Below are positions 7,768-31,996 of a DNA stretch of 64,000 nt, in pieces. Positions within the stretch are counted from its first letter, which is position 1; each line of letters begins with the position of its first letter. The translations under genes and the position numbers were made by a program. The stretch is from Methanococcoides sp. LMO-2 (GTDB lineage: Archaea; Halobacteriota; Methanosarcinia; Methanosarcinales; Methanosarcinaceae), in assembly GCF_038432375.1 (NCBI RefSeq), contig NZ_JBCAUS010000003.1, positions 186,001-250,000 on the forward strand, read 5' to 3'. Under the pieces are notes generated by a model. That model was not told the DNA's origin and searched no databases. It saw only the letters and a program-made list of their open reading frames with translations.

Positions 7768-7844
7768 GTCAATGAAATATAAAGGACCTGCAAATGGCTT
7801 TTACCATAAAGTCTCACGATCAATTACATTCAAGGAGGTATTTT

Positions 7845-15785: not shown

Positions 15786-15809
15786 GTGGAAATGAGAAAT
15801 CATTCCCAC
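15786..15809 (-). terminator. Hairpin overlapping the stop of the zinc-ribbon gene
   Basis: Arms GTGGAAATGA (15786-15795) and TCATTCCCAC (15800-15809), one mismatch, with a GAAA loop on the plus strand. The stop codon (15800-15802) is inside the stem. An AT-rich stretch with T-runs follows on the minus strand. Likely terminator. Confidence 0.6.
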
Positions 15810-16144
15810 TGGCTATATCCAAATGTATCCTGATAACGTTTTACAACAGAACCCAGATAATTGGACATTGTCCTCGATGACATACCGGACATGAAATTGT
15901 TCAACGGGAACTCAGTATCACAATGTACACAACGTGCATGCTCACATCCATTTACTGATTCAGGACAACCGGTGCAAAGTTTTGCTCTGGAGTAGAACAG
16001 GTTAAAGGTTGTTCCACATTGGGGACAGGTTACGTTCCTGTTAGCATCGTACAGGTTCTTACTCACACCTTTTCGTTTTAGTTCCTCGGAATACCTTTCA
16101 TCCCGGGTAAGGTTTGCCATTAATTTCTTCTCTTCCATATCCAT
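15800..16144 (-). CDS. Small Cys-rich zinc-ribbon protein of unknown function
   Basis: About 114-aa cytosolic protein with an Asp/Glu/Lys-rich N-terminus and dense Cys clusters: CPQCGTTF, then CTGCPESVNGCEHARCVHCD. These can form two zinc sites or an iron-sulphur or rubredoxin-like site. The frame opens at 16189, but ATG 16144 follows a GAGGTG ribosome site at good spacing and removes an unlikely hydrophobic leader. It is divergent from the Old-Yellow-Enzyme gene, and the shared intergenic region carries the palindrome found at the other methyltransferase promoters. I infer co-regulation. No family recognised with certainty. Confidence 0.65.
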   Translation of the reverse strand: MDMEEKKLMANLTRDERYSEELKRKGVSKNLYDANRNVTCPQCGTTFNLFYSRAKLCTGCPESVNGCEHARCVHCDTEFPLNNFMSGMSSRTMSNYLGSVVKRYQDTFGYSQWE

Positions 16145-16229
16145 CGTTAACACCTCACGGAAATAGCTCACTAAAAAAAAGATGATCATTTCGCTATATA
16201 TAACGACTCATATTCGGGAATCAACGCCT

Positions 16230-16242
16230 TTGATATTATCAA
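16230..16242. promoter_or_regulatory. Palindromic operator copy 1, TTGATATTATCAA
   Basis: Thirteen-base palindrome around a central T in the gap between the divergent zinc-ribbon and flavoprotein genes. The flanks (AAAACCATTAATAT on the right) match those at 29389-29408. An AT-rich TATA-like stretch (TTAATATAATAGG) overlaps its right side, so binding could block or help plus-strand initiation. Same motif at 18653-18667 and 29389-29401. Confidence 0.6.
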
Positions 16243-16360
16243 AACCATTAATATAATAGGGATTAAAGCAAAGTTTAGATTACTTTCAGCATGTTTCCTC
16301 GAAGTTCATCCCACGATGGAATACTGATGACATGTGTATGAAATATGTAGAGTGAAAAAG

Positions 16361-18529
16361 ATGGTCTACAAGAAATTATTTGAACCCTGCAATATCGGTA
16401 CATGTAATTTGATTAACAGGGTCATTATGGCCCCAATGGGAAATATCAATATGGCAGACCCCATTGGCCGTCCAACAGAAAAGATGATCGCATACTTCAG
16501 GGAGCGGGCAAAAGGTGGTACAGGTCTCCTGATTACAGGCCTTGTCCCGGTTTCATACGGGATCGACCCTACTGTTTCCGAAGAAAATGACACCACATAT
16601 TTTCCACGTATAGATGGAACTTCAAGGACCCGCCTTTCAGGATGGAGAGACCTGACAGCTGCGGTGAGACCCTATGGTTCAAAGATATTCATCCAGCTAT
16701 CTGCCGGACTTGGAAGGGTTGGGTCCCCTGAGCCTTTTTTGAAAGGCAAGATCTTAAGATCTGCCTCATTTAGCAGGAACTTCTACGTTCCACAGGTCCC
16801 GCATTTTCCACTTTCGGACAGAAAGATACGCAAGATAGTGAAAAGCTTCGGACAATGTGCAGTCAATGCAAAGGTTTCCGGTTTTGACGGTGTACAGATA
16901 CATGGTCATGAAGGTTACCTGATGGATCAGCTAACCTCTGACCCTTGGAACAGGAGGAAAATCGGCAGTTATAGGAACAAGTTCCAGTTCGGCATAGACG
17001 TAGTGAAGGAAATCAAAAGAAGATGTGGTGATGATTTCCCGATAATCTACAGGATAGACCTTACCCAGGCACTGGAAGAAAGCTACGGTAAGGAGATATT
17101 CAGGAAACGTTTCCGTGGAAAGGAACGTAGCATCGAGGAAGGGCTGGAGTTCTGTAAAGTCCTCTATGAAGCCGGTGTTGATGCTTTCGATGTTGACAAA
17201 GGATGTTATGACAACTGGTTCTTGCCACATCCACCTGCTTATTTCGATGATGCCATCTATGCTGAAGAACTCGCAGGCAGACTGAAAGCCAATTTCCGCA
17301 AAGAGAACATCGACGCAAAGGTAATTGCTGTGGGGAAACTTGGAAAGCCTGAAGTTGCTGAAAATGTCCTGGAACAGGGATGGGCAGACTATGTGATGCT
17401 CGGAAGACCACTTCTGGCAGATCCTTACTGGACCAGGAAAGTGAAGGAAGGCAGGACAAAGGAGATAGTCCACTGTATCGGTGATCAGGAAGCCTGTCTC
17501 GAATCGCTCAAACTGGGTGGTCATTCCTGCTGTACTGTCAATCCTTACATGGGTTTTGAAGATTCCAAGCAACTGACCAGAACAGATGCCAAGAAAAGGA
17601 TTGCTGTCATAGGTGCAGGTCCTGCCGGTTGTGAGGCTGCAATGACCGCTCATAAAAGAGGGCATGATGTAACTCTTTTCGAAAGGACGAACCATATCGG
17701 AGGACAGCTTCATCTGGCGGGGAAACTGAAGATCAAGCATGATATCAGGCGATATCTTGAGAATCTCCGGTACCAGCTAGACCTGTTAGTTGATAATGGC
17801 CTGAAAGTTGAATTTAATAAAGAAGTAACTCCTGATGATATCAAAGAAGAGTTCGATGTGATCTTTTGTTGTACCGGGCTGGAAACAGCCATCCCGAATA
17901 TTGAGGGACTGGAAAACATCCCACATATGGATATTCGCGAGTTCCTTAGCAATAATATGCAGCTCCCGGATAACATAAAAGACATTATGGTAGTAGGTGG
18001 AGGGATCCTTGGATGTGAGGTAGGCTATTCACTTGCCTATGAAAAGGGACTCAATGTAACTGTTGTCGGAAAGAACAGAGACCTGATACCTAAGACAGTA
18101 ATGGCAAACCGGTCGCATATGTTATGGATGATGATGGGAAAAGGATCGCCTTCCGGTAAAAAGGACGATGTCCTGAAAGAACCTGTCACTGCTTACAATG
18201 CATCGGAAGTTGTACGTTTTTCAGGAAACAAGGCGACCCTTGCAGTGAACAAAGACAGGGAACCTCCATACACACCATGGAAACCACTTATTCCTGAAAA
18301 TGTGAATAATCCGTTCGAAAAGAAACTCAAAACTGGAAATGTTGAGGACGTGGAAATAGATGTGGACTTTGTCCTCTTCGCAACATCCGGTAAGCCAAAC
18401 AATTCCTTATATTATCATTTACTGAAAAAATGTCCATCCAAAGAGATATACTCGATAGGGGATTCGAGCGAACCGGGGAACTTGTGGAAGGCTATTAATG
18501 ATGCAAACGAGGTCTCAAGGAATATCTGA
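16361..18529 (+). CDS. Old-Yellow-Enzyme/dienoyl-CoA reductase-type FMN, Fe-S, FAD oxidoreductase
   Basis: 722-aa three-part flavoenzyme. Residues 1 to about 350 form the FMN TIM barrel (LFEPCNIGTCNLINRVIMAPM, GFDGVQIHGHEGYLMDQL). Next is the Fe-S loop. From about 415 there is an FAD/NAD(P) module (IAVIGAGPAGCEAAM and DIMVVGGGILGCEVGYSLA). The family includes 2,4-dienoyl-CoA reductase, enoate reductase and trimethylamine dehydrogenase; all move hydride from NAD(P)H or substrate via FAD, [4Fe-4S] and FMN. The Fe-S motif is odd: CIGDQEAC has Asp375 where the second cluster Cys normally is, and the last ligand is a CC pair. The start is ATG 16361; GTG 16334 is less likely. The promoter carries the shared palindrome, so it probably serves the methyltransferase system. 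Substrate unknown. Confidence 0.85.
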   Translation: MVYKKLFEPCNIGTCNLINRVIMAPMGNINMADPIGRPTEKMIAYFRERAKGGTGLLITGLVPVSYGIDPTVSEENDTTYFPRIDGTSRTRLSGWRDLTAAVRPYGSKIFIQLSAGLGRVGSPEPFLKGKILRSASFSRNFYVPQVPHFPLSDRKIRKIVKSFGQCAVNAKVSGFDGVQIHGHEGYLMDQLTSDPWNRRKIGSYRNKFQFGIDVVKEIKRRCGDDFPIIYRIDLTQALEESYGKEIFRKRFRGKERSIEEGLEFCKVLYEAGVDAFDVDKGCYDNWFLPHPPAYFDDAIYAEELAGRLKANFRKENIDAKVIAVGKLGKPEVAENVLEQGWADYVMLGRPLLADPYWTRKVKEGRTKEIVHCIGDQEACLESLKLGGHSCCTVNPYMGFEDSKQLTRTDAKKRIAVIGAGPAGCEAAMTAHKRGHDVTLFERTNHIGGQLHLAGKLKIKHDIRRYLENLRYQLDLLVDNGLKVEFNKEVTPDDIKEEFDVIFCCTGLETAIPNIEGLENIPHMDIREFLSNNMQLPDNIKDIMVVGGGILGCEVGYSLAYEKGLNVTVVGKNRDLIPKTVMANRSHMLWMMMGKGSPSGKKDDVLKEPVTAYNASEVVRFSGNKATLAVNKDREPPYTPWKPLIPENVNNPFEKKLKTGNVEDVEIDVDFVLFATSGKPNNSLYYHLLKKCPSKEIYSIGDSSEPGNLWKAINDANEVSRNI

Positions 18530-18652: not shown

Positions 18653-18840
18653 GTTGATTTTATCAACGCCGTTATTTTTCCATAATGGCTCTTTTTCTGA
18701 CATGGCTTGATTCATGAACATCATCTCTTTCAGAACCACGACCCAATTGGAAGACATACCATTGATAATACTGCTGATAGCGATTTTCAGTATGAAATTG
18801 TTATAAGTATCTTAACTCGAATACTGATTATTAGTCAATA
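18653..18840 (+). promoter_or_regulatory. Duplicated promoter block upstream of the methyltransferase gene
   Basis: A 188-bp segment that matches, in opposite orientation, 29401-29215 upstream of the corrinoid gene. The last 60 bases (18781-18840 vs the reverse complement of 29221-29280, offset aligned) differ at only about 4 positions. It holds: palindrome GTTGATTTTATCAAC (18653-18667); a TATA-like TTATAAGTA (18801-18809); and a dyad AGTATC-N8-AATACT (18806-18825) just after the TATA. The start should lie near 18830, leaving a 5' leader of about 145 nt before ATG 18975. Such sharing implies the same regulator at both promoters. Confidence 0.75.
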
Positions 18841-18974
18841 GGAAGTGGTATGACCTCATTCTATTGACATGGATCGAAGAAAGATACTGCATCAATGATC
18901 ATGAGTGGTAACTATGGAAAAATTTGCACCTCTGACTATTGATGCAAAACATAAACAGATTGGGTGATGAAATC

Positions 18975-20087
18975 ATGCCAGCAGAAGATTATGCACCAAT
19001 AGACACAAATTGGCTAGAAAATGCAGGGAACTTATGGACAACTCCGTTCGTAGATACTCCCTCGGAAAGAGTGATTGTGGATCCGATCATCCTGTCACAT
19101 GCAGCAAGCGTTTTCAAGAAAAACGTTGGCTACTTTTGGCAGAATCCGGCAGAAGCAATGAGAATGGTCTGTCATACATGTGAGATGTATGATGTGACTC
19201 CGGTAGGTCATTACCTATATGCAGATTATTGGGGTGAGGACTACGGAGCTAAAGTAAAGGTCCAGGCAAACTCCCCACCAGGAATTACAAAGCGTCCAAT
19301 AAAAGATGCTGCAGATGTTGATAATTTTGAAGTATTGAGTCCCGAAGATCTTGCAAAAGGTCCTACACTAACAAAACACTTTGAGGCACTGGACACCTGT
19401 CACAATGAATTCCCACAGATGTTCGCACCGATCACCCAGCTAGGTGGTACAATGGAGGTAGCAACAAACTGGGCTTCTATTGATGATGTTTTCATGTGGA
19501 TGATCACTGAACCGGAAGTTGTCGATAAGCTCACAACCAAGGCATCCGACCACATGGCAAATGCCTGTAAAGCCACAGCAAACCGCTATGGTGCAAACGT
19601 AATGATCACCGGTTCAGTAATTGCAAGCGGTGACCTGATGGACAGGGAACAGATCAAGAGGTTCAGTTACAACCCGGTCTCTAAAGCTGTCAGGAAAATG
19701 ATGAACGCAGGTGCAGGTCCTGGAGTTTACTACCACCTTTGTGGAAACCACAGTGATGACTTCGACCTCTGGAAAGATGCTCCAATGAGTCCTTTCACTG
19801 TTGTCCAGATCGGATACGACGGCAAGGATATCTTCCCATCAGAAAAGCTTGTCGAGAACTTTGGTAACAGGTGTACCTGTTTCGGAACAGTTGATACCAA
19901 GCTTGTGGACCGTGGTACACAAAAGCAGGTCTATGAACAGGCAAAAGAACAGATCCTTGCAGGAAAGGATAGTCCAAGAGGATTCATCATTGGAACTTCC
20001 TGTGAATGTCCAACAAATGCTCCACCAGCAAATGTCCATGCACTGGTAAAGGCTGCAAGAGATTTCGGAAAATATGAGAAGTTCTGA
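18975..20087 (+). CDS. UroD-family corrinoid/thiol methyltransferase
   Basis: 370-aa member of the uroporphyrinogen-decarboxylase superfamily to which methylcobamide:CoM methyltransferases (MtaA, MtbA) and several demethylases belong. The zinc motif HxC...C is intact: His254-x-Cys256 in [11 protein letters not shown] and Cys343/Cys345 in [13 protein letters not shown]. So it can activate a thiol or a methyl donor. The start is ATG 18975, preceded by GGTGAT at 6-nt spacing; earlier TTG/ATG codons at 18939-18942 lack this. It lies under the duplicated promoter and heads a four-gene plus-strand operon. With a corrinoid protein under the twin promoter, methyl transfer to or from cobalt is the natural role. 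Which substrate, and whether it is the CoM-side or substrate-side enzyme, is not visible. Confidence 0.85.
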
Positions 20088-20129
20088 AGTTCGGAATACA
20101 AGGTGTACAAAAAATAAGGAGTGTTATCT

Positions 20130-20603
20130 ATGGATCTAAATGTATCTGATGAAGTAAACGACCTGTTAAAAGACAACGGGTTCAGGATCGAAGAAATCCA
20201 GGAAATAATCGAGAACGCAGAATCCAGTGGCAACAAACTGAAAGATGCGGATGGAGCAGTCTTCCTTGCAAAAGGTGTTTCAGACAACCTGACAACCTAC
20301 GCAGTCTATTCTCCTCTCGATAATGGTGCATTTGAACTGAAAAGTGCATATGCACATAAGATGGACATTGCCGGATTGACCGGTGGTTCCTTCGTCGAAG
20401 TCGAATATGACGATGAGAACGGATGGATCTGCAACAACTGTAACGAAGCATCCGTGGACAGGAATGTAGACATGTCCTACCTGGATGTTTCAAGACCAGG
20501 TCCCGGCATGGTCTGTCCGAAATGTGGTGAGATCTACATTTCCGAAGGTGTCAACAAGACACTGAAGACAGCCGAATCCATCCTGGAAGAAAAGAGAGCC
20601 TGA
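20130..20603 (+). CDS. Small Cys4 putative redox protein of methyltransferase clusters (DUF7479-like)
   Basis: 157-aa soluble protein. The N-terminal 90 residues are helix/strand with a conserved-looking core (SDNLTTYAVYSP, FELKSAYAHKMDI). A zinc-ribbon or rubredoxin-like pair of knuckles follows, CNNC and CPKC, about 30 residues apart. The C-terminal VCPKCGEIYISEGVNKTLK resembles small redox proteins next to UroD methyltransferases in anaerobes (NCBI names such as DVU_1557 or CLJU_RS11820 family, from memory, unverified). The start is ATG 20130 with AAGGAG upstream. It sits 42 nt after the methyltransferase and 35 nt before the radical SAM gene. It could pass electrons for corrinoid or radical SAM chemistry; this is inference. 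Confidence 0.65.
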   Translation: MDLNVSDEVNDLLKDNGFRIEEIQEIIENAESSGNKLKDADGAVFLAKGVSDNLTTYAVYSPLDNGAFELKSAYAHKMDIAGLTGGSFVEVEYDDENGWICNNCNEASVDRNVDMSYLDVSRPGPGMVCPKCGEIYISEGVNKTLKTAESILEEKRA

Positions 20604-20638
20604 TAAACCTGTGTAACTAAAACTCCGGGAGGGATAAG

Positions 20639-22138
20639 ATGGAACAGATCGGAAAAGTTGGTACCATTTGCCCTGAATGTCTCAAGAGCATTGAAGGTAT
20701 CAAATTTGTAGAGGATGGAAAAGTATACATCAAAAAAGAATGCGATGAGCATGGCACCTTTACTACACTCATTTCCAATGACATAAACCACTACCTGAAG
20801 ATGGAAGAGTGTTTCGATGTTGATCGTGCCAGGGTCAAAGCACCTTTGACTAATGTTAACAAAGGCTGTCCTTATGATTGTGGCATCTGCCCCTCCCACA
20901 AACAGGATACATGTCTTGCAGTTGTGGAAGTTACCGACAGGTGTGATCTGGGTTGTAAATATTGTTTCGCTGATTCCACAGCTGATGCCAGTAACGACCC
21001 GGATATGGATACAATAAGAGGAATGTTCGAAGCAGTAAAAGCCTGCTCCAACGACCCAACCTGTGTCCAGATATCAGGAGGAGAACCGACATTGAGGAAT
21101 GATCTGCCTGAGATCATCAGACTTGCAAAAGAAGTCGGCATCTCCCACGTTGAACTAAACACTAACGGACGACGCATTGCAAGAGAACAGGATTATCTTG
21201 ATCTCATAAAAGAAGCAGGCGTTGATGCGATATACCTCGGTTTTGATGGTGTATCTGATGATGTATACATGCAGAGGACCGGGAAAAAGCTGTTCGACAT
21301 AAAAGCTAAAGTCATCGATAGATGTGAGAAGACCGGAATTGGGGTCGTACTTGTACCACTTGTGGCAAAGAATTACAACCTCCATGAAGTTGGCGAAATA
21401 ATCAAGTTTGCCAGCCAACATGTTCCAACTGTCAGAGGGGTACATTTCCAGCCGGTCTTCTATTCCGGAAGGTCTCCTGATGAAATGGAAAACAGGACAA
21501 CAATTCTGGAATTGCTCGAAGCAGTAGAAGCTCAAACCAACGGGCAGTTGAAAGTTGATAATTTTACACCCTCTCTGATGCCAACTGCCCACTGTGGAGC
21601 AACCTGCCTGACACTTGTTGATGATAGTGGTTTCATTCCCCTGACCAATGTCTCAATGGGTGCTATAAAGTCAAAATCCGATGTTGCTAACAAGACAAAG
21701 AATTCGATAATGGGACGCTGGAAAGGTTCAACACCTGCACTGCAACCGGTCACAAAACCATCATGTTGTGACCTGCTTACCAAGACTGCACTTAGCAATG
21801 CCAGCAAGAATGATGAAACATCTTCCTGCTGTGAAAAGCCCGGGAACACCATCCCACTTGAAACGATACCGATGGAAAGCTCCTGCTGTCGTTCCGGCGG
21901 AGGATGGACAGACTTCATTGAGATGAGCATGAATAAATACCTGACCATTTCAACAATGGCCTTCCAGGATGTCTGGTCATACGAAAAGGAACGTGTTGAG
22001 AACTGTTGCATACACGTCGTGACCAAGGATGGAAAACTTATCCCGTTCTGCAACTACAACCTTAGCAATTGTAACGGCGACTTCCTGTACCGTAGCAAGA
22101 ACGACAAGAAGAACAAGGCTATTGGAATTGAAAAATAA
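20639..22138 (+). CDS. Radical SAM enzyme, Tes/MJ0619-like
   Basis: 499-aa radical SAM protein. N-terminal zinc-type Cys pairs ICPECLKSIEG and KKECDEHG (residues 11-38), then CPYDCGICPSHKQDTC (77-92), the canonical cluster C102-x3-C106-x2-C109 in TDRCDLGCKYCFAD, the SAM-binding QISGGEPTLR and ELNTNG. The layout matches the archaeal MJ0619/tetraether-synthase-like clade, which alkylates or couples unactivated carbons. The C-terminal third is unusual: three CC pairs (SCCDLL, SSCCEK, SSCCRS) in about 50 residues plus NCC and CNYNLSNC, enough for extra clusters. A strong GGGAGGG ribosome site lies before ATG 20639. Substrate unknown; its place between redox protein and AMP ligase suggests a carbon-modifying step in the same pathway. 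Confidence 0.82.
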   Translation: MEQIGKVGTICPECLKSIEGIKFVEDGKVYIKKECDEHGTFTTLISNDINHYLKMEECFDVDRARVKAPLTNVNKGCPYDCGICPSHKQDTCLAVVEVTDRCDLGCKYCFADSTADASNDPDMDTIRGMFEAVKACSNDPTCVQISGGEPTLRNDLPEIIRLAKEVGISHVELNTNGRRIAREQDYLDLIKEAGVDAIYLGFDGVSDDVYMQRTGKKLFDIKAKVIDRCEKTGIGVVLVPLVAKNYNLHEVGEIIKFASQHVPTVRGVHFQPVFYSGRSPDEMENRTTILELLEAVEAQTNGQLKVDNFTPSLMPTAHCGATCLTLVDDSGFIPLTNVSMGAIKSKSDVANKTKNSIMGRWKGSTPALQPVTKPSCCDLLTKTALSNASKNDETSSCCEKPGNTIPLETIPMESSCCRSGGGWTDFIEMSMNKYLTISTMAFQDVWSYEKERVENCCIHVVTKDGKLIPFCNYNLSNCNGDFLYRSKNDKKNKAIGIEK

Positions 22139-22207
22139 CTTTTTCTTTTTTAAATTTAGATCATGAGGTTTGAACTGTGAGTCAATAATAGAAGCGGAGG
22201 CAATAAT

Positions 22208-23359
22208 ATGAATCTTCCTGAAAAGATCAGCACATCCATAAGGATGAATGTAGCAAAAAGAAAACTGGATTCCAGAAAGATAAAAAGCACACATGGAAAT
22301 CCATTGGAACAGTGGGGCGTAGCTAAGATCAAAAAAGAGATAGCCAAAGATAAGGAACTGAAGAAGCTCTTTGGAGATAAGGATCTTAACAGGGATGATA
22401 TAAAGGCATACAAGCTTCTGAAACTAAAGGAACTGGTAGATTATGTTTCTAAAAACAGTCCGTACTATAAGGAACTGTATGCAGAACATGGTCTAAACTC
22501 ATCACAGATAAACTCATACGAGGACCTTGCAAAGATACCCCTTACAGAGCAGGACACGTTGGCAGCACACCCCTACCATTTTCTCTGTGTTTCTAGGAAA
22601 GATATTGCGCGTGAGTTTACAAGTTCCGGAACCACGAATATGCTGAAAAGGGTGGCATATACTCAAGGAGAATTACTTGAGATCGTTGATTCCGTGATCT
22701 CCGGCTTGAAGATGGCAGGAATGGATTCCAATGAGGACACCCTGCAGATAATGTACCCTACCATAACCGCAACATGGGATCCCGGGCTTGTTCTGAGCAA
22801 AGCCTGTGACCTTGGAGGCTTCCGTTCTGTGATCAATGATTCGGTTGATGCCCAGAGCCAGATCGACACAATTAAAGAAAAGGAAACTACCGTAATGATC
22901 GGTACTTCGTCGTTCATCTATAATTTTACAATTGAAGCAAATAAGATCGAAAACGTAAGGAATCTTGGCATCAAAAAGATCATTTGTTCATCTGAACCTC
23001 TAACTGACACCATGAGAATGGTAATAGAAAGCGTTTGGGGCTGCAAAGCTGTCAGACAGTGGGGTATGACAGAACTGGGGCTGGCGAATGCTATCGAATG
23101 TGAGGGGGAGGATGGTTTACATGTAAATAACCCGGATTTCCTGATTGAGGTTATTGACCCCAAAACCGGTGAGATCCTGCCCCCTGGAAAAGAAGGAGAG
23201 CTTGTAGTTACAACATTAAGACGCAGGTGTATGCCCCTCATTCGCTACCGTACACGTGATATTTCTGCAATCTTCGATAAGAAATGCAATTGTGGTGCTC
23301 ATCTGGACCAGAGGATCATGAATGTGAAAAGGATGGATGACTACAGCAGTAAAAATTGA
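22208..23359 (+). CDS. PaaK-like AMP-dependent carboxylate ligase
   Basis: 383-aa adenylate-forming enzyme of the phenylacetate-CoA ligase type. The phosphate-loop FTSSGTTNMLKR, the core VRQWGMTELGLANAIECE, GEILPPGKEGELVVTTL and RYRTRDIS are present. PaaK proteins are nearer 430 aa, so this one is compact: the C-terminal lid domain is short, ending KRMDDYSSKN. It may therefore adenylate or transfer rather than complete CoA ester formation. GGAGGC precedes ATG 22208. It lies 69 nt after the radical SAM gene. Comparable AMP ligases occur next to UroD methyltransferases and redox proteins in some sulfate reducers (recalled, unverified). A UUCG-loop terminator follows. Confidence 0.78.
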   Translation: MNLPEKISTSIRMNVAKRKLDSRKIKSTHGNPLEQWGVAKIKKEIAKDKELKKLFGDKDLNRDDIKAYKLLKLKELVDYVSKNSPYYKELYAEHGLNSSQINSYEDLAKIPLTEQDTLAAHPYHFLCVSRKDIAREFTSSGTTNMLKRVAYTQGELLEIVDSVISGLKMAGMDSNEDTLQIMYPTITATWDPGLVLSKACDLGGFRSVINDSVDAQSQIDTIKEKETTVMIGTSSFIYNFTIEANKIENVRNLGIKKIICSSEPLTDTMRMVIESVWGCKAVRQWGMTELGLANAIECEGEDGLHVNNPDFLIEVIDPKTGEILPPGKEGELVVTTLRRRCMPLIRYRTRDISAIFDKKCNCGAHLDQRIMNVKRMDDYSSKN

Positions 23360-23399
23360 CCTGATCAGCTCATACATTTCAAAAGCGATCGCCTTTTTG

Positions 23400-23417
23400 T
23401 GTCTCCTTCGGGAGACA
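23400..23417 (+). terminator. UUCG-loop hairpin terminator after the AMP ligase gene
   Basis: TGTCTCC-TTCG-GGAGACA: a 7-bp stem closed by a C(UUCG)G tetraloop, followed by TGATATTTTTC. It separates the ligase gene from the aquaporin gene, which may thus be read less. Confidence 0.7.
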
Positions 23418-23458
23418 TGATATTTTTCTATTGATACGGGATCGTTTGCCTTTCTTCT

Positions 23459-24175
23459 ATGAAACAAGGGGGAAGCTCGTTGATAAATTCAATCGAAAAA
23501 AGCGTTGCAGAGTTCATAGGAACATTCGCTTTGGTCCTTGTTGCTGCCGGATCGGTTAATGTGAACTGGAGTTTTCTGGGATCACACGACATTCTTGGTG
23601 TGGCAGCTGCATGCGGTCTCATAGTTACCATTGCAATGTACTCCATAGGGAATATATCAGGGGCACACATAAATCCTGCAGTTACCACATCCCTGTTCAT
23701 TACAGGACAAATGGAGATGAAAAACACGATATCCTATATTTTAGCTCAACTGATGGGAGCAACGGGTGCATGTTTGTTCCTTTCTTACTTGTTGCCGACA
23801 GATATGGGAAAAATGCATATTGGAACAACGGTTCTTGCATCAGAAGTTACCTTCACGGCAGGAATTCTGATCGAAGCTGTCCTCACTTTCATACTGGTGT
23901 TCACAATATTTGTGGTTGCCGTAGACAACAGGACATCGACCAAGTACGCCGGTGTCATCATAGGAGCTATTGTATTCCTGGACATCGTTGTAGGCGGGAG
24001 CCTGACAGGGGCATCAATGAATCCGGCAAGGACATTTGGTCCCGCATTTGTCCTTGGCCATTGGGCAGATCATCTTGTGTACTGGATAGGACCTATCACA
24101 GGTGGGATGTTCGCTGCTATCTTTTATGCAAAGGTGTTTTCCCAGAGGACAGGGAACAGGACGGAAAAAGCCTGA
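23459..24175 (+). CDS. MIP-family aquaporin/aquaglyceroporin
   Basis: 238-aa channel with six hydrophobic helices and both NPA boxes: SGAHINPAVTTS and GASMNPARTFGPA. The second box with Arg after NPA is the selectivity-filter Arg. N-terminus AEFIGTFALVLVAAGSVNV is typical. It probably passes water or small neutral solutes such as glycerol, or gases. A TTG start at 23480, directly after AAGGGGGAAG, is an alternative to ATG 23459. It is about 100 nt beyond the AMP ligase gene in the same direction but after a hairpin, so it may be partly separate. Why a methyltransferase locus has an aquaporin is unknown; uptake of an uncharged methylated substrate is one idea. Confidence 0.88.
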   Translation: MKQGGSSLINSIEKSVAEFIGTFALVLVAAGSVNVNWSFLGSHDILGVAAACGLIVTIAMYSIGNISGAHINPAVTTSLFITGQMEMKNTISYILAQLMGATGACLFLSYLLPTDMGKMHIGTTVLASEVTFTAGILIEAVLTFILVFTIFVVAVDNRTSTKYAGVIIGAIVFLDIVVGGSLTGASMNPARTFGPAFVLGHWADHLVYWIGPITGGMFAAIFYAKVFSQRTGNRTEKA

Positions 24176-24298
24176 AACTCAATTACTTCTTTTATCCTTC
24201 GTTTTTGTTCGCATTTACCGGATAGCGAATACCAACACAAATTAACAAAATAAAAATCAGAAAAGTAAAAAGATCCCCAACCCGAAAAGGGTCAAAGA

Positions 24299-25069
24299 TC
24301 AGTTGTTCATATCCATGGGAATCAGAAATGAACTTGCCTGCTCGTCCAGGCCAATGCGTTCAGCTATCCTGTAAACACAATCTCTGTCACATTGTGCATT
24401 GTATGGGGTATACTGACACTGGACATTCGTATTACATTCATTTATCCAGTTGATCCCGAACATTTCGGACAGGTACTTCATGCCTTCCCTCAGAGAGATA
24501 CGGGTAGCCTTTTTACAGCATCTTGCTCCGCCTGCATCCGCAATTGCTTCCAGTGACCTCGAAGTTCCCCTGTTTGCATGTGAACGCTCTTCCGGAGTCA
24601 ATGGTGTAGCATCCAGCAGGACACTTATTGCAATTCCTGCACCGATTCCTCCACCACATGCTCCCTGGTAACCACAGAAACCGCCTGCAACCTTTTGTCC
24701 TCTGCTGATACCTTTGACGATCTTGGTATAATCCTTCTGTCCTACGTAGTTCATGTAAGCAGTTATGAGGGCAGCAGGTACGAGTGAATGATGTTCAGGG
24801 CCATGCATTGGCATTTTCGGATGTGCCATGATCTTTTCCGCAATAAGGATCGGGTTTTTCAGATTCGTGCTCATGCAAACACTTTCAATGATCTCCAGTG
24901 CGTCTGCACTATGACATTTGTCACACACGTAATGTGCGCTTTCACAGCACATGTAGGTATCTTCTTCGGCTCCGCAGTAGTAGCATTTTGCTTTGCATGT
25001 ATGGTCATGGTAGCTAATGTCATTACCGCAGACCATACAATTCGTTGTTCCTTTTGGTATTGCATCCAT
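24299..25069 (-). CDS. DUF5714 Cys-rich protein (C-GCAxxG-C-C-like)
   Basis: 256-aa protein. The N-terminal 60 residues form a dense Cys/His zinc domain (CMVCGNDI, CKAKCYYCGAEEDTYMCCES, CDKCHS). The core has GFCGYQGACGGGIGAGIAIS and GGARCCKKATRIS, which together resemble the C-x-GAC...CC signature of the C_GCAxxG_C_C group; such Cys sets often hold an Fe-S cluster or act in redox or corrinoid chemistry. The C-terminus has a further Cys set (NECNTNVQCQ, QCDRDCVYRIAE). The start is ATG 25069 with AAGGTGAT upstream, and the frame's extension to 25141 is not used. It is the last gene of the minus-strand operon, 17 nt after the SDR. Function unknown. Confidence 0.75.
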   Translation of the reverse strand: MDAIPKGTTNCMVCGNDISYHDHTCKAKCYYCGAEEDTYMCCESAHYVCDKCHSADALEIIESVCMSTNLKNPILIAEKIMAHPKMPMHGPEHHSLVPAALITAYMNYVGQKDYTKIVKGISRGQKVAGGFCGYQGACGGGIGAGIAISVLLDATPLTPEERSHANRGTSRSLEAIADAGGARCCKKATRISLREGMKYLSEMFGINWINECNTNVQCQYTPYNAQCDRDCVYRIAERIGLDEQASSFLIPMDMNN

Positions 25070-25086
25070 TTTAATCACCTTCTTTC

Positions 25087-25935
25087 TTAAATTTGCGAAT
25101 TTTTTTCTCTTAGTTGAGAACGTGAAAATATTACCAGCCATTTCGTAGGCAGTCTCTTTACGAGCTTATGCGTCAGATCAAGAACACGACCAGGAATGAC
25201 CATATCCTTCTTTTTCTGCATCGCACGATAGGTCTCAAGTGCGACCTTTTCAGGTGTTGTGGCCATCCACGAACTGAATGTGTTCGTATTCTCCATCCGG
25301 GCAGCTTTCTGGAATCCGGTGCCTTTGACCGCAGTAGGACAGACTGCCATTACATGTACATTGGAACCCAGCTCCCGAAGTTCGTAGTTCAGGCTCCTGC
25401 TGAATTGAAGAATGAAACTCTTGCTGGCCCCATATGTAGTAAAATAAGGATTGGGCTGGAAGGCTGAGATCGAAGCCATATTTATGATCTGGCCCTCATC
25501 ACGCTCCAGCATGTCCTTAAGGTAAAGACGCGTGAGGTCATAGAGCGTAAGTACATGAAGATGAAGCATGTCGTGTTCATGCTGGCTGTCTATATCGTTT
25601 ATGAATCCGTAGGTTCCAAATCCGGCACAGTTAACCAGTACATCGACATGGGAGCAATGCTCCTTTGAAAATGAATATACCTCCCGCGCACATCCTGACC
25701 TGGAAAGGTCAACGGATCTCACCATAATTCGCGTTCCAGGATAAATCTCCTGCAGAAGCTTACGGGCATTGAGCAGTTCATCTTCCGGTTTAGCTACAAG
25801 GAGCAACTGATAACCATTTTCTGCGAACAATTTTGCCAGCTCGAAACCTATGCCACTTGATCCGCCTGTTATGAGAGCCGTTCTTTCATGGTGATCAGCT
25901 TCCAGTTCATTGTTGTCATTGTACAGGCTTTCCAT
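25087..25935 (-). CDS. Short-chain dehydrogenase/reductase
   Basis: 282-aa NAD(P)-dependent oxidoreductase of the classical SDR type. The cofactor motif TGGSSGIGFELAKLF, the NCAGFGTYG motif (Asn-Ala-Gly), and the catalytic Ser ... YGASKSF (Tyr-x-x-x-Lys) are complete. The C-terminus is basic and partly hydrophobic (HKLVKRLPTKWLVIFSRSQ), so membrane association is possible. A start at 25935 overlaps the aldehyde dehydrogenase stop by a few bases (GTGATC then ATG), so the two are translationally coupled. Such SDRs reduce aldehydes or ketones; with a class 3-like ALDH beside it, a long-chain aldehyde, alcohol and acid interconversion is plausible. Confidence 0.85.
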   Translation of the reverse strand: MESLYNDNNELEADHHERTALITGGSSGIGFELAKLFAENGYQLLLVAKPEDELLNARKLLQEIYPGTRIMVRSVDLSRSGCAREVYSFSKEHCSHVDVLVNCAGFGTYGFINDIDSQHEHDMLHLHVLTLYDLTRLYLKDMLERDEGQIINMASISAFQPNPYFTTYGASKSFILQFSRSLNYELRELGSNVHVMAVCPTAVKGTGFQKAARMENTNTFSSWMATTPEKVALETYRAMQKKKDMVIPGRVLDLTHKLVKRLPTKWLVIFSRSQLREKNSQI

Positions 25936-25940
25936 GTTGA

Positions 25941-27356
25941 TCACATCCACCTGTAGATCATTCTGAAAATCTTCCGGATGTTTTCCGTATAAGGCGGATA
26001 CAACATACCCATTGAACCCCACGTACGTTGCATCACAGCCCGCTCATTGGAAAAACCCACAAACCCGTGGAAGCCCAGTGACTTTCCGATACCACTGCTG
26101 TTTATACCTCCAAAAGGTAAGTGAGGGTTGCTATAACTGAGCATATAATCATTGGTAAGAGTGCTTCCTGAGGGAATGCTGTCAATGAAATAATCGATAT
26201 TGCCCTGATTCTCACTGGCAATGTACAGGATCAGTGGTGATGGGTTCTGCTCGATGACAGGGATAACATCTTCCCTGTTCCTGTATGTGATCATTGGAAG
26301 CAGGGGACCAAATATCTCCTCCTGCATTATCTTCATATCAGCGGAAACGTTTTCCAGCAAGGTAGGAGCTATGTAAAGATCGGAATCATCGAAATCGCCA
26401 CCATACAACACCCGAGCATCCTTTTCACATGCATCATTATAGAGATTCAGAAGCCTGTTGTAGTGATGATCGTTGATGATGCGACAGTAATCCGGGGAAT
26501 TCCGTATGCCTTCTCCCGACGGATCATAAAGCTGCTCCATTGCTTTTCCAAACTCAGTTACAAAACAATTCCTTGAAGACTCATGTACAATGAGATAATC
26601 AGGTGCAATGCACGCCTGGCCGTTGTTGATGAACTTTGCCCATGCAAGATTTTTTGCTATTTTCCTTACATTTGCTGTTTCATCTATGATTGCAGGTGAT
26701 TTGCCACCCAATTCCAGAGTAACACTGGATAAATGTTGAGCAGCCCTTGACATTATCTCTTTTCCGACACGTGGACTGCCTGTAAAGAATATATGATTGA
26801 AAGGAAAGTCAAGCAGTTTTTTTGCGACTGATTCATCCCCTTCGAAAACTGCAACCTAGCTCTCGTCAAACAGTTCATACACCATCAACGAGATGTAAGC
26901 TGAAGTCTTAGCAGCCATTTCGCTGGGCTTCAGTATAACTGCATTCCCGGCTGCAATGGCATAGACAAGAGGAACAAGAGTCAGGTTGAACGGGAAGTTC
27001 CAGGGTGCTATGATAAGGACAACGCCTTTTGGTTCATACCTAATGTGAGATCTTGTTCCCATAAGTGGAAGTGGTGTTGGTACTTTCCTGTCCTTCATCC
27101 ATTTGTGAAGGTTTCGTTTTACATGATTGATATGTGCCTGTACTATGCCTACCTCTGTAGCTATGACCTCGGCCTCAGGTTTGCGAAGATCATGGTACAT
27201 TGCTTCATAAAGATCGTTCAGGCGCTCCTCATCCTGAAGATAGCTCTCAATGCGCCTGATACGTTCCAGTCGTTCCTCTGCATTTGCCTGTGCAAGATTA
27301 GGCACATTCTTCTTCTGGATCTCAAAGACCTGCTGGATCTCCAAACACATATTCAT
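25941..27356 (-). CDS. Class 3-like aldehyde dehydrogenase with in-frame UAG (probable pyrrolysine)
   Basis: 471-codon NAD(P)-dependent aldehyde dehydrogenase, 27356 to 25941, broken only by TAG at 26858-26856 (codon 167 from 27356). Before it: LVPLVYAIAAGNAVILKPSE and IIAPWNFPFNLTL. After it, in the same frame without further stops: VAVFEGDESVAKKLL, HIFFTGSPRVGKEI, VTLELGGKSPAII, the catalytic Cys in NNGQACIAP, and EIFGPLLPM. All active-site motifs are intact, so decay is unlikely. In homologues the amber position is variable, often Tyr or Leu in this loop. I infer UAG is read as pyrrolysine. ATG 27350 with TGAGGA upstream is an alternative start. It lies 25 nt after the membrane-protein gene and overlaps the SDR gene. 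Confidence 0.88.
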
Positions 27357-27381
27357 TCCTCACATAAGGAAAATAAAGTGC

Positions 27382-28245
27382 TCAGACTGCACTGAGCCCA
27401 AGCAAAGATAGAGTATAGAAAGATGTCAGCAAAAATGCGGCAGTAGCCTCTCTTTTTGTCCACTCTTTCTGTCCGTTGACAAATCCTTTTAGTGCAGATA
27501 TACAACCTATCAAGCGTTCACTTCCATTATGGAGCCCTTTCCTTGCTTCTCTAATCTCGGCAAGTGACAGGCATATCCAGAGAAGGAATACATAGCCTGC
27601 CATAAGGGAAAGCAATGAAAAGGTCGGGTGTGACCATGTTCCAAGTGTTTCTCCTGCAGTTTCTGTAAGAACCGTAAAGAATCCTGTAAAGTATGCAAGC
27701 CTTAACAGGTTGAAGTTCCTGAATAGCATGAACACGATTCCGAATTTGACCGCTGTGATCAGGGGTTCTTTTGCCAGGTCAAAGTACCTGTAGTCTGCCA
27801 GTATGAGCAAAACAAAGCTCAGAATGACAAAGTGGTTTACATAATGGAACCAGCCTGCTTTTGAATAGTGATCTTCGAATATCTTCCATAAATTGTGGGC
27901 TGACCAGAATATTGTTCCATATCCGGGCAATATCCAGATCGGGACATTTCCAATTGCACCTCCCAGGTATGTGAAATATCCGTATTGAACACCCAGAAGC
28001 TCATGGATATAACCAAAAACGGAAGCAATAATCAGGAATATTTTCCCTTCCGTCTGGCTGTTCTTCCAGAAAAGGATCCATAATGCAGATAGTATGATCG
28101 CAGGAGCAATCTCATCTTTTGTCTGTATGTAATATGTAAGAACTCCAAATATTGTAAAGAGCATGAACAGACAAAAGTACAATGGAGTGTTGACAAGTAT
28201 TCTGCTTTTGTTCTCAATATCTTTTAAGGGGATCAATCCGCTCAT
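27382..28245 (-). CDS. Polytopic membrane protein, DUF817- or carotenoid-biosynthesis-like
   Basis: 287-aa integral membrane protein with about eight hydrophobic helices (LYFCLFMLFTIFGVLTYYI, AIILSALWILFW, FVILSFVLLILADY, LAYFTGFFTVLTETAG). Conserved-looking polar motifs lie near helices: HELLGVQYGYFTYLG, WSAHNLWKIFEDH and ETLGTWSHPTFSL. The last resembles DUF817 or the CruF/carotenoid-hydratase-like fold; I am not sure. AAGGAG precedes ATG 28245. It begins the tight gene string membrane protein-ALDH-SDR-DUF5714, about 195 nt and one hairpin downstream of the corrinoid gene. A hydrophobic substrate such as an isoprenoid or lipid would fit. Confidence 0.65.
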   Translation of the reverse strand: MSGLIPLKDIENKSRILVNTPLYFCLFMLFTIFGVLTYYIQTKDEIAPAIILSALWILFWKNSQTEGKIFLIIASVFGYIHELLGVQYGYFTYLGGAIGNVPIWILPGYGTIFWSAHNLWKIFEDHYSKAGWFHYVNHFVILSFVLLILADYRYFDLAKEPLITAVKFGIVFMLFRNFNLLRLAYFTGFFTVLTETAGETLGTWSHPTFSLLSLMAGYVFLLWICLSLAEIREARKGLHNGSERLIGCISALKGFVNGQKEWTKREATAAFLLTSFYTLSLLGLSAV

Positions 28246-28378
28246 AAACAGAACTCCTTGGTTTTACACCGATGATTTTTATTTCGTTTTTAGTTCCAAA
28301 ACTGTGAGAACTTCAAAAAGACCATCTTTTAGGTTTTTAAATCGTGCTGTGACCTTAAAGGGGGAAGGGAGGAGTTGT

Positions 28379-28402
28379 CAGGCAGTGGCATAAGACTGCC
28401 TG
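28379..28402 (-). terminator. Intercistronic hairpin after the corrinoid gene
   Basis: Perfect 8-bp arms CAGGCAGT/ACTGCCTG with an 8-nt loop; GGGA/TCCC pairing may extend the stem. It lies between the corrinoid gene (stop 28441) and the membrane-protein gene (start 28245). It could end or attenuate the corrinoid transcript so that this abundant protein is made in excess. Confidence 0.55.
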
Positions 28403-28440
28403 ATGGTCCCTCTTCAGGTGTTACTTTTTGACAAAAGACC

Positions 28441-29106
28441 TTAATTCCATCTGTTGTCTGAAAGGTCAACGAGCAATTCTTTTGCTAACCTTGCAGCTTC
28501 CATGGCATCAGTTGCAGTTCCGTCTGCTCCGACCTCATCTGCAAAGGCCTTGGTTACTGGTGCACCACCGATCAAGATCTTCACTTTGTCCCTGATACCC
28601 TGGTCATGGATGTGTTTGATAGTTGCTTCCATGTTGTCCATTGTTGAGGTCATCAGTGTGCTCAAAGAGATGATATCTGCCTGGTGCTCGACAGCTGCAT
28701 CTGCAAAATCGTTGATCTCTACATCCTTTCCAAGGTCGATAGCCTCAAATCCGTTTGCAGTAAGCATGGTCTTTACAAGGTTCTTCCCGATGTCGTGGAC
28801 GTCTCCTTCTACTGATCCGATAATAGCTACTGCGGATTTTTCTCCATCTTCCTTCTTGAGATGTGGTGTAAGGATGTTCATCCCACCATACATTGCGTTT
28901 GAAGCCATCATGAGCTGTGGCATGTATGCTTCTTTGTTGTCGTATTTCACACCCATGATCTCCATACCCTTTGCCAGTCCGTCAATGACTGCAACGTATG
29001 GGTCGATGCCAAGTTCGAGTGCCTTTTCTGCATAAGCGGTAGCATCATCCTTGTTACCGGTTACAACTGCTTCTGTAAGATTACTGATTACATCATTTTG
29101 TTCCAT
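28441..29106 (-). CDS. Corrinoid (B12-binding) protein of a methyltransferase system
   Basis: 221-aa two-domain protein of the MtaC/MtbC/MttC type. Residues 1-88 form the helical cap domain (KALELGIDPYVAVIDGLAKGM). Then the Rossmann cobalamin domain shows the base-off ligand motif GDVHDIGKNLV (Asp102, His104, Gly107), ISLSTLMTSTMDNM and ILIGGAPVTKAFADEVGAD. His104 should be the lower cobalt ligand carrying the methyl group between enzymes. The start is ATG 29106 after GGAGGC; the frame extends to 29163 without a ribosome site. The promoter is the near-twin of that of the UroD methyltransferase, the strongest evidence that the two are partners. No MtaB, MtmB, MtbB or MttB-type gene is adjacent. 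Confidence 0.95.
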   Translation of the reverse strand: MEQNDVISNLTEAVVTGNKDDATAYAEKALELGIDPYVAVIDGLAKGMEIMGVKYDNKEAYMPQLMMASNAMYGGMNILTPHLKKEDGEKSAVAIIGSVEGDVHDIGKNLVKTMLTANGFEAIDLGKDVEINDFADAAVEHQADIISLSTLMTSTMDNMEATIKHIHDQGIRDKVKILIGGAPVTKAFADEVGADGTATDAMEAARLAKELLVDLSDNRWN

Positions 29107-29214
29107 AGTATGCCTCCTTCGTTCTGGTGGCCAGTGAGTGGTGTGTATGTCCATAAATAACATCCATGACCACCAGGATCCATAGTATCAATGAACTGAT
29201 CATTGGAGATCCGT

Positions 29215-29401
29215 TATTGACTAATAATCAGTATCCGAGTTAAGATACTTATAACGATTTCATACAAAAAATCGCTATCAGAAGTAATATCGAAGGCATA
29301 TTTCCCAGTTGGGTCGTAGTTCTGAAAGAGTCCTTGTTCAGGAACAAAACCATGTCCGAAAAAAAGGCAGGGTAAAAAAATAATGGCATTGATAATATCA
29401 A
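29215..29401 (-). promoter_or_regulatory. Duplicated promoter block upstream of the corrinoid gene
   Basis: Reverse-complement twin of 18653-18840 (187 bp). It contains palindrome TTGATAATATCAA (29389-29401, flanked by AATGGC/AACCATT so that the dyad extends to 29382-29408), TATA-like TTATAAGTA (29254-29246) and a perfect dyad AGTATC-N8-GATACT (29230-29249) just downstream of the TATA. The start should be near 29222, giving a leader of about 115 nt before ATG 29106. The leader itself is not conserved with the other promoter, so the shared block is for control of initiation. Confidence 0.75.
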
Positions 29402-29522: not shown

Positions 29523-30314
29523 TCAGTCTGATTTTTTGACTTCTTCTGCGATTCCCTTGTAATACTCAAAAAGTTCTTTACCCCATGAAAGCGCACTTTC
29601 TTCGAAACTAAGCAACTTCTTATGGTCAAATACACCTTCACTGTTGAAAAATGCGATCAATAAAAGGTTATCTGTTATCGAAAGTGCACCCAGTTTTGCT
29701 GCATCATCCTCAACAACATACAAGCTTGAGTTCTTTGATGCTATCATTTCATTGTACTGGTCCTCATACTCTTCTACAAGTCTTGTGTATACAGATCTTG
29801 TCAGGATGAGTGTAAAGTTCGTCTCTTTTCTACCCAGTTCCGCATAGTTGTAGGGACATGAAGGACAGAAATATGAATAGAACGTTGAAACGTTCTCTGC
29901 ATTCTTAAGACTCTGAAGCAACTGTTTTGGTGGTTCGAACAAATGACTAAGATCTGGTTCATGAATTATCACTTCTCCAAGATCTCCGATATTATCAAGA
30001 GCTGACTCAGGAAGGCCACTTAGATCCCTACTTTGCCAATATTCTTTGTTACTTTCCAGTACATCGAGCGTTTTTATTAAAGGAGCTATTTTTTTAAGGA
30101 CGATCTGTCCGATGTAGGTTAACTCGTAATCATCCCCTTTCTGTTCGATAAGCCCCTGTTCGAGAAGGATCTTTACCTGAGCCATTATTGCACTGGTACT
30201 GCCTTCAAGTGATTCTTTTATCCGGTCTATTGTGGTCGGACCATCCATTAACATAAGGACGATCTTTTTTCTTTTTTCGGATAAAAAAACTGTACTTACT
30301 AATTCAGATGTCAT
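29523..30314 (-). CDS. Msr-type DUF1724 winged-helix transcription regulator
   Basis: 263-aa regulator. An N-terminal ArsR-like winged helix (LMDGPTTIDRIKESLEGSTSAIMAQVKIL) is followed by the DUF1724 domain, with the family-typical EPDLSHLFEPPKQLLQSL and GALSITDNLLLIAFF. In Methanosarcina acetivorans, Msr regulators of this type control methanol and methylsulfide methyltransferase genes and can be paired with a neighbouring sensor kinase (MsmS/MsrG; established knowledge). Here it lies 416 nt upstream of the corrinoid gene in the same direction and 38 nt after a PAS-GAF kinase. GAGGGAG precedes its ATG. It is the best candidate to bind the TTGATNNNATCAA palindrome or the dyad at the TATA box. 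Two Cys in YFCPSCPY could sense redox. Confidence 0.88.
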   Translation of the reverse strand: MTSELVSTVFLSEKRKKIVLMLMDGPTTIDRIKESLEGSTSAIMAQVKILLEQGLIEQKGDDYELTYIGQIVLKKIAPLIKTLDVLESNKEYWQSRDLSGLPESALDNIGDLGEVIIHEPDLSHLFEPPKQLLQSLKNAENVSTFYSYFCPSCPYNYAELGRKETNFTLILTRSVYTRLVEEYEDQYNEMIASKNSSLYVVEDDAAKLGALSITDNLLLIAFFNSEGVFDHKKLLSFEESALSWGKELFEYYKGIAEEVKKSD

Positions 30315-30352: not shown

Positions 30353-31996
30353 TTATATAGTTTTGTTCTTTGGCAGACTTATGATAACTGTCGTTCCCTT
30401 CCCTTCCTCACTATCGACACGTATATCCCCACCATGAGTATCGATTATGTTCTTGCAAAGATAGAACGTTGACTTCAGCTCTTCATAATCCTTGCTCAAA
30501 ACAGAAGTATCCTCATCCTGAACCTGATAGAACCTAACGAACAGGTTCGTTACAAGTGATTCCGGTATTCCAAGGCCGTTATCCTTCAGTTCAAAATAGA
30601 CAATATTATCTTCTTCAGAGACTTCAACATCAATGTTTCCGTTCTCAGGTATGAACTGTATAAGGCTTTCAATCACCCTTGTAAGTACATCTGAGATCTT
30701 ATCCTTGTCAACATTTATTGTGGTTATCTCGTCCGGTATTTTCTTGGTAAAAGATATGTTCTTCTCATCGATCCTCAATATCACATTCAGGGTAACATTA
30801 TCAATGATCGAACGTACATTCACCAAAGATGGATTATAGTTCTTCTTCTCGAACTCTTCCATGTCAATGTATAACAATGAATCAACAATGCTCTTTAGTT
30901 TTTCAGAACTTCTTATTACAGTCTCCACAGCTTTGTTCTGTTGTCTGTTCAGGGAACGGAGAGTTTCCTTCTCGATAAAGCTGCCTTCACAGATCATGGT
31001 CGGCAGGTCTTCCTTGCTGTGTACAAACTCTCTTTTTATGCTGTTCACAGACTTCAGGTCATTGTTTGCCTTTTCAAAGTCCTCAGAGAACACCTTCAAG
31101 GCATCCTCCACCTCTTTACGGAAAATTACCTTCCACATATCTTCGAAAAGAAGCTTTAACTGCTTAACATCAAAATCAGTATAATCGGTCTTTTTGTTGG
31201 CCACGCCGACGAGTGCCACGATCTTCTGCCCATCATATATTGGAACGCTCATGTGGCGGACGATCTCCATATGCCCTTCAGGATATCCGTTTTTTACCGA
31301 ACCTGAAAGATGGTTATTGAAGATCACAGGTTGGCGCTGCCTGATAGCTTCCAGGAACGAACAACTCTCTTCAACGGAATAGAGTTGTTTCTTTGTTTTT
31401 ACATTGCAGGTCGTTCCTGCTGTTTCAGACTACGAATGAACAGTGATGGTATCTTCAGACTGGTTCACCAGGGCAAAGTAACCAGCTTCGCTTCCCATCA
31501 GTTTGATACCTTCTTCAAGTATGAATTCAATGATCTCTTTGACCGAATGGGAACTCATCTGATTGAGCCTGAGAAGCGTTTCCAGTCGTGCTTCATTGAT
31601 CTGAAGGGCTTCTTCGACTTTTTTGTTCTCTGTGATATCAAAAATAATTCCCTGGATGCTTTCAATATCCCCGCGATCATTTCGTTTCATAAGTGATCTT
31701 TCATCGACCCAGCGAATCTCCCCAAATTTGGTAATAATCCGGTACTGCCGTGTGAAACCAACAAGTTTGTCCTTTTTAGAATAATCTAAAAAGTCCTCTT
31801 TTAAATGATCAATGTCATCAGGATGCACTATATCTGCATACGTTAACTTTCCATCTATGAACTCTTCCGGATCATAACCAAACTGGAGTATATTCTCTGA
31901 TACAAAATCAACATTCCAGTCCTCATCGGTATCCCAAAGGAAAATTACTGCCTGACTACTGTTTATTATTATTTCAATGTCTTCACTGCTGATCAT
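30353..31996 (-). CDS. PAS-GAF sensor kinase with in-frame UAG in the GAF domain
   Basis: 547-codon soluble sensor, interrupted only by TAG at 31432-31430 (codon 189). Order: PAS (about 1-125, AVIFLWDTDEDWNVDFVSENI), GAF (about 140-300), a degenerate dimerisation helix region (SEKLKSIVDSLLYIDMEEF) and an HATPase domain (VNVDKDKI-type N box, ELKDNGLGIPES, GKGTTVIISLPK). The amber codon lies inside the GAF domain: DTITVHS-UAG-SETAGTTCNV, where related methanogen kinases usually have Trp in the motif SWS. After it the frame runs on with QRQPVIFNNHLSG and MEIVRHMSVPIYD. The GAF Cys eight residues later recalls the haem-binding Cys of MsmS. I see no clear phospho-accepting His in the usual motif. 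It sits 38 nt upstream of the DUF1724 gene, so the two form a sensor-regulator pair. Confidence 0.85.

Follow-up and report, generated by a model that had tools for sequence, protein, structure and literature searches.

Two operons of the window (the 64-kb stretch analysed here, positions 186001-250000 of contig 3 in a 2.31 Mb genome; window coordinates are used throughout) converge, one with a methyltransferase gene (MT) and the other with a corrinoid protein gene (CORR), and they are preceded by inverted copies of the same 187-nt block. We consider it likely that these homologous blocks serve as promoter modules within a single methyl-transfer regulon and are read by a dimeric regulator, most likely the product of the neighboring gene REG. 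Such modules would give the FilR1/Msr-type regulators of methylotrophic methanogenesis a concrete operator within a defined promoter architecture, and they delimit a regulon that can be tested and that centers on a methyl-transfer pathway not yet characterised. The open literature that was searched held no published FilR1/Msr operator motif and nothing direct on the cluster. The pair also gives a clear archaeal case in which recombination has held two promoters alike, and this in several genera.

Two copies of one promoter

A repeat search recovered the two blocks (Table 1) as inverted arms, 82% complementary and 10374 nt apart. The preliminary description had them aligning along their whole length with equal spacing, and the alignment is indeed gapless, with 147 nt between palindrome start and TATA-like box in both copies (18654 to 18801; 29401 to 29254). 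Of the bounds it gave for the plus copy (18653-18840) the end stands, while the block starts one base later. Its estimate of about four differences in some 60 bases at the TATA box agrees with pairwise alignment of the 67 nt CTGATAGCGATT...TTAGTCAATA flanking TTATAAGTA, where the copies differ by four mismatches. The operons are convergent, as described (18972-24175 on the plus and 29106-24299 on the minus strand), and what lies beyond the blocks is unrelated: the leaders directly past them share 20-47% identity in 30-nt windows, and the first genes encode a URO-D methyltransferase and a B12-binding corrinoid protein.

Searching the whole genome (BLASTN) with the block returned the second copy (E 6.4e-49) and no third full-length copy, the next match being the palindrome at 16230 (E 0.07). 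With R1, a sequence-only profile built from 33 blocks, the MT and CORR blocks stand alone at about E 1e-30, and the palindrome between ZN and OYE is added as a partial match. The genome search that had been proposed thus gave two full copies and none scattered elsewhere. Two inverted copies within one genome might point to a repeat that is mobile or dispersed, such as an insertion sequence, a MITE or a REP-like element, an origin to which we give next to no weight, as the window genome holds no more copies and those of relatives lie at orthologous genes; copy number, fixed gene context and rigid TATA spacing led us to reject it.

Each block is ordered as a palindrome (TTGAT-NNN-ATCAA), a conserved spacer of ~100 nt, two TTGAT half-sites, BRE/TATA and the start region. 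The conserved elements are TTGATATTATCAA with a T-run, GTTTTC, TTTGAAC, TTGATAATA at +108, TTGATTAATTA at +126, AAGTTATTATATATA and a terminal GTCAATA; the TATA-proximal half-sites are degenerate in the window species. Nine of the ten other exact palindromes in the window genome fall within open frames. Conservation in the blocks carries no helical signal of 10-11 nt, and a weak peak is seen at 8.75 nt. Strong conservation over ~190 nt, together with one open frame in the CORR copy, could also be what a conserved RNA leader, a riboswitch or a small gene would leave; we hold this to be extremely improbable, given that the TATA box comes only after the bulk of the block. There was no Rfam match at gathering score between 12000 and 36000 of the window. 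A coding sequence was rejected, since the MT copy and nearly all relatives have the CORR-copy frame closed, and no reading frame is open in more than two of 45 blocks.

Table 1 Features of the cluster (window coordinates)
Feature	Position	Strand	Remarks
ZN	15800-16189	-	with OYE forms the third palindrome-bearing unit (15800..18529)
Third palindrome TTGATATTATCAA	16230..16242		between divergent ZN and OYE; R1 partial match E 1.8e-4
OYE	16334-18529	+	
MT promoter block	18654..18840	+	187 nt, 82% to CORR copy, gapless; R1 E 3.8e-30
Distal palindrome TTGATTTTATCAA, MT promoter	18654..18666	+	putative operator; kept upstream of MT in relatives
TATA-like box TTATAAGTA, MT promoter	18801..18809	+	aligns with TTATTATATATA in relatives
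MT, URO-D family methyltransferase	18972..20087	+	PF01208 E 1e-33
Rest of MT operon	20121..24175	+	DUF7479 redox protein, TrsS-like radical SAM, AMP ligase, MIP channel
Rest of CORR operon	24299..28245	-	membrane protein, aldehyde dehydrogenase (in-frame TAG), SDR, DUF5714 protein
CORR, methyltransferase corrinoid protein	28441..29106	-	PF02607/PF02310; TIGR02370 202 bits, slightly below cut-off
CORR promoter block	29215..29401	-	187 nt, gapless alignment; R1 E 2.6e-31
TATA-like box TTATAAGTA, CORR promoter	29246..29254	-	aligns with TTATTATATATA in relatives
Distal palindrome TTGATATTATCAA, CORR promoter	29389..29401	-	putative operator; kept upstream of CORR in relatives
REG, FilR1/DUF1724-family winged-helix regulator	29523..30314	-	candidate palindrome reader (co-occurrence); PF08350 E 8e-33
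Sensor kinase	30353..31996	-	two open frames divided by in-frame TAG, upstream of REG

Conservation and recombination of the pair

Of 112 family genomes, 23 have MT, and in almost every one of them a CORR relative is found at a distance of 5-30 kb. The block stands before MT and CORR alike in 22 genomes of Methanosarcinaceae, which fall into five genus groups. The palindrome, exact or near-exact, lies upstream of both genes, the distance to the aligned start being mostly 280-310 nt, and recurs in the ZN/OYE region of many genomes. Although identity between genera falls to 50-60%, block length stays at 185-188 nt in 44 of 47 promoters, and with few exceptions 144-148 nt separate palindrome and TATA box. 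Because the CORR leader 3' of the block ranges from 46 to 179 nt, this constancy of length is a property of the block itself. Two congeners without MT and CORR orthologs retain only a decayed relic of the block, near 8108 of locus L116 (G016) and near 5919 of L117 (G018), with no gene at the expected place.

The block pair had been called a duplicated control region and not a repeat element; a control region, and a non-mobile one, it appears to be, but the duplication is not recent. The identity of 82%, the sharp edges and the unrelated flanks would fit a recent segmental duplication in which one operon received the promoter of the other. MT, however, has its own block at the equivalent place in G020, G021 and all other genera, i.e., in close and distant relatives alike, which makes a recent duplication very improbable. 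Moreover, the leader just 3' of the window MT block remains MT-like (90-100% to the MT promoter of G020 in sliding windows), so that partial, local replacement of an existing promoter fits better than insertion.

The likeness of the two promoters bears the marks of concerted evolution. The MT/CORR label switches seven times in the block tree, and a single clade of all MT blocks is rejected (AU p 4.6e-7). The two blocks of G073 are 92.5% identical to each other vs 68-70% to the nearest relative, and those of the window genome 82% vs 62.6% for the window MT block to the MT block of G020. Sliding windows place the right half of the window MT promoter with CORR (83-97%) and away from the MT promoter of G020 (43-57%). 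This mosaic is what gene conversion between promoters would leave. By these comparisons, the MT and CORR promoters evolve in concert by gene conversion, and their near-identity reflects this process acting on an old duplication. A few reciprocal differences between G000 and G019 at block positions 134, 135 and 166 hint that the exchange continues.

Gene order is OYE>MT...CORR<REG in Methanococcoides and REG>MT...CORR<OYE in Methanolobus, and thus the inner segment is inverted relative to its flanks. Its joints fall at the blocks or close to them, as a crossover between inverted block copies would leave them. A half-swap comparison placed the Methanococcoides blocks about equally close to both Methanolobus promoters. 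Tentatively, and with considerable doubt, one may go further and picture the inverted pair as an active recombining device, in which conversion would hold both convergent operons to a single control sequence and crossover would flip the 10-kb segment, swapping the flanking regulator and oxidoreductase, while FilR1/Msr paralogs and TTGAT/TTAAT operators would have co-diverged into a readable methyl-substrate code.

A candidate regulator and the wider regulon

REG homologs (E<1e-75) occur in 22 of the 23 genomes with MT vs 5 of the 89 others; among these five, the cluster of G055 sits on a contig that is cut short, and G016 retains a relic block. Wherever the region was read REG adjoins a block, and in Methanolobus-type genomes, where it is duplicated, each copy does so. 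Given this co-occurrence with MT and this adjacency, REG is the best candidate for the palindrome. On such correlative evidence we postulate that REG dimers most likely occupy the distal palindrome, and probably the TTGAT half-sites directly upstream of BRE/TATA as well, and that REG would jointly set transcription of the MT operon, the CORR operon and the ZN/OYE unit, so that coordinated corrinoid, methyltransferase and oxidoreductase units could serve some methyl donor. Since one conserved 187-nt promoter is common to both, the MT and CORR operons are probably switched on together under the neighboring regulator. REG would act mainly as an activator, a presumption that comes from analogy and layout: the operator lies upstream, and published relatives activate (MsrA/B) or bind and raise expression (FilR1). 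The transcription start sites are likewise predicted ones. The claim that MT and the corrinoid gene belong to one regulon is supported by the comparison between genomes, which suggests a wider regulon with ZN/OYE and, in relatives, a RamA homolog.

It is less probable, though worth weighing, that the promoter is shared but its palindrome is read by another factor, with REG merely linked. Linkage and co-occurrence are no proof of binding, two other signaling genes (the split kinase) adjoin REG, and in G071 and G057 TTGAT dyads stand beside a different FilR1 paralog; control might in fact lie with the kinase or with an unlinked factor. Yet REG keeps its place beside a block when its surroundings are rearranged, each duplicated Methanolobus-type REG included, and related FilR1-type regulators adjoin related blocks, which is why we favor REG as the reader.

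R1 matches at E<0.01 were found in 45 of 112 genomes, with G052 having weak blocks only. Methanolobus-type genomes carry an extra block between the second REG gene and a RamA-family activase (TIGR04270, 693 bits vs a cut-off of 500), as well as weaker full-length matches immediately 5' of fused corrinoid-methyltransferase genes, each adjoining its own FilR1-family gene. The dyads at these fused loci are mostly TTRAT-NNN-ATTAA, some of them arranged in tandem 9 or 18 nt apart. In their regulators the presumed recognition helix reads NVTSSAMMTQIKIL or DVTSSAIMTQIKIL as against G(S/T)TSAIMAQVKIL. Exceptions are the TTGAT-type dyads in G057 and G071 and some loci without an exact dyad. More block-like matches lie away from MT and CORR in L181 (G073, 8919-9124), L187 (G036, 1559-1716) and L182 (G028, 7796-7977), their neighbors being a possible secreted protein with a copper-like domain, a radical SAM/ABC-transport unit and a sensor kinase; these may be further regulon members.

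In Methanosarcina acetivorans the activators of mtaCB1 are MsrA/B and those of mtaCB2 MsrD/E (cited in PMC11218639), and mtpCAP-msrH is required for growth on methylmercaptopropionate (PMC7374477). Across the Msr systems (MsrA-H with mtaCB, mtsD/F/H and mtpCAP) a FilR1-family regulator adjoins corrinoid/methyltransferase genes that are probably under its control, and the window shares these features, i.e., an adjacent FilR1/DUF1724 gene and URO-D and B12-binding neighbors; in its relatives the promoter family of the window blocks also precedes fused corrinoid-methyltransferases. The window pair differs in serving two convergent operons plus the OYE unit, in its single TTGAT dyad at a fixed distance and in its other, uncharacterised enzymes. 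A further difference is that the exact dyad of the window type is absent from all three mts promoters of the genome that we take, from gene positions, to be M. acetivorans, where mtsD carries TTTGATC-rich repeats.

REG also shares the middle domain of FilR1 from the FilI/FilR1 system of Methanosaeta harundinacea. That protein has an ArsR-related domain, binds methanogenesis promoters in EMSA and raises expression (PMC3991700), and a term search of the same paper found no operator motif; it is a REC-bearing response regulator, whereas Pfam shows no REC domain in REG. HdrR of Methanosarcina barkeri is likewise a winged-helix activator of a methanogenesis operon with a palindromic sequence at its footprint, but its target and its motif are either different or not stated there (PMC11218639).

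Gene content of the cluster

The cluster spans 15.8-32 kb and comprises divergent ZN and OYE, the two operons, REG and the sensor kinase. MT falls below the cut-off for the MtaA/CmuA family, scoring 72 bits where the NCBIfam cut-offs for MtaA/MtbA methylcobamide:CoM methyltransferases are 235-244, and 55 against MtaA (cut-off 400). The radical SAM protein (20639-22138) narrowly misses TrsS NF045646 (467 bits vs a cut-off of 490). The radical SAM, AMP ligase, redox and DUF5714 proteins of both operons match the NCBIfam set TrsS/MbdU/DVU_1553/DVU_1557, families without known role; they differ from it in being all under curated cut-offs and in their combination with corrinoid methyl transfer.

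Several minor observations concern these genes. The radical SAM, AMP ligase, DUF7479 and DUF5714 proteins encoded in 20121-25141 resemble bacterial TrsS, DVU_1553, DVU_1557 and the double selenoprotein MbdU, and are here joined to a corrinoid methyl-transfer cluster. An MtbA-like CoM methyltransferase follows the corrinoid gene in the Methanolobus-type loci L177, L178 and L180, and the window genome is without one between CORR and the membrane protein. The in-frame TAG of the aldehyde dehydrogenase (26856-26858, minus strand) occurs in the window genome only, most relatives having Glu, and that of the sensor kinase (31430-31432, minus strand) is also present in G019 and G020, with Trp in other genera; both could be pyrrolysine codons or lesions.
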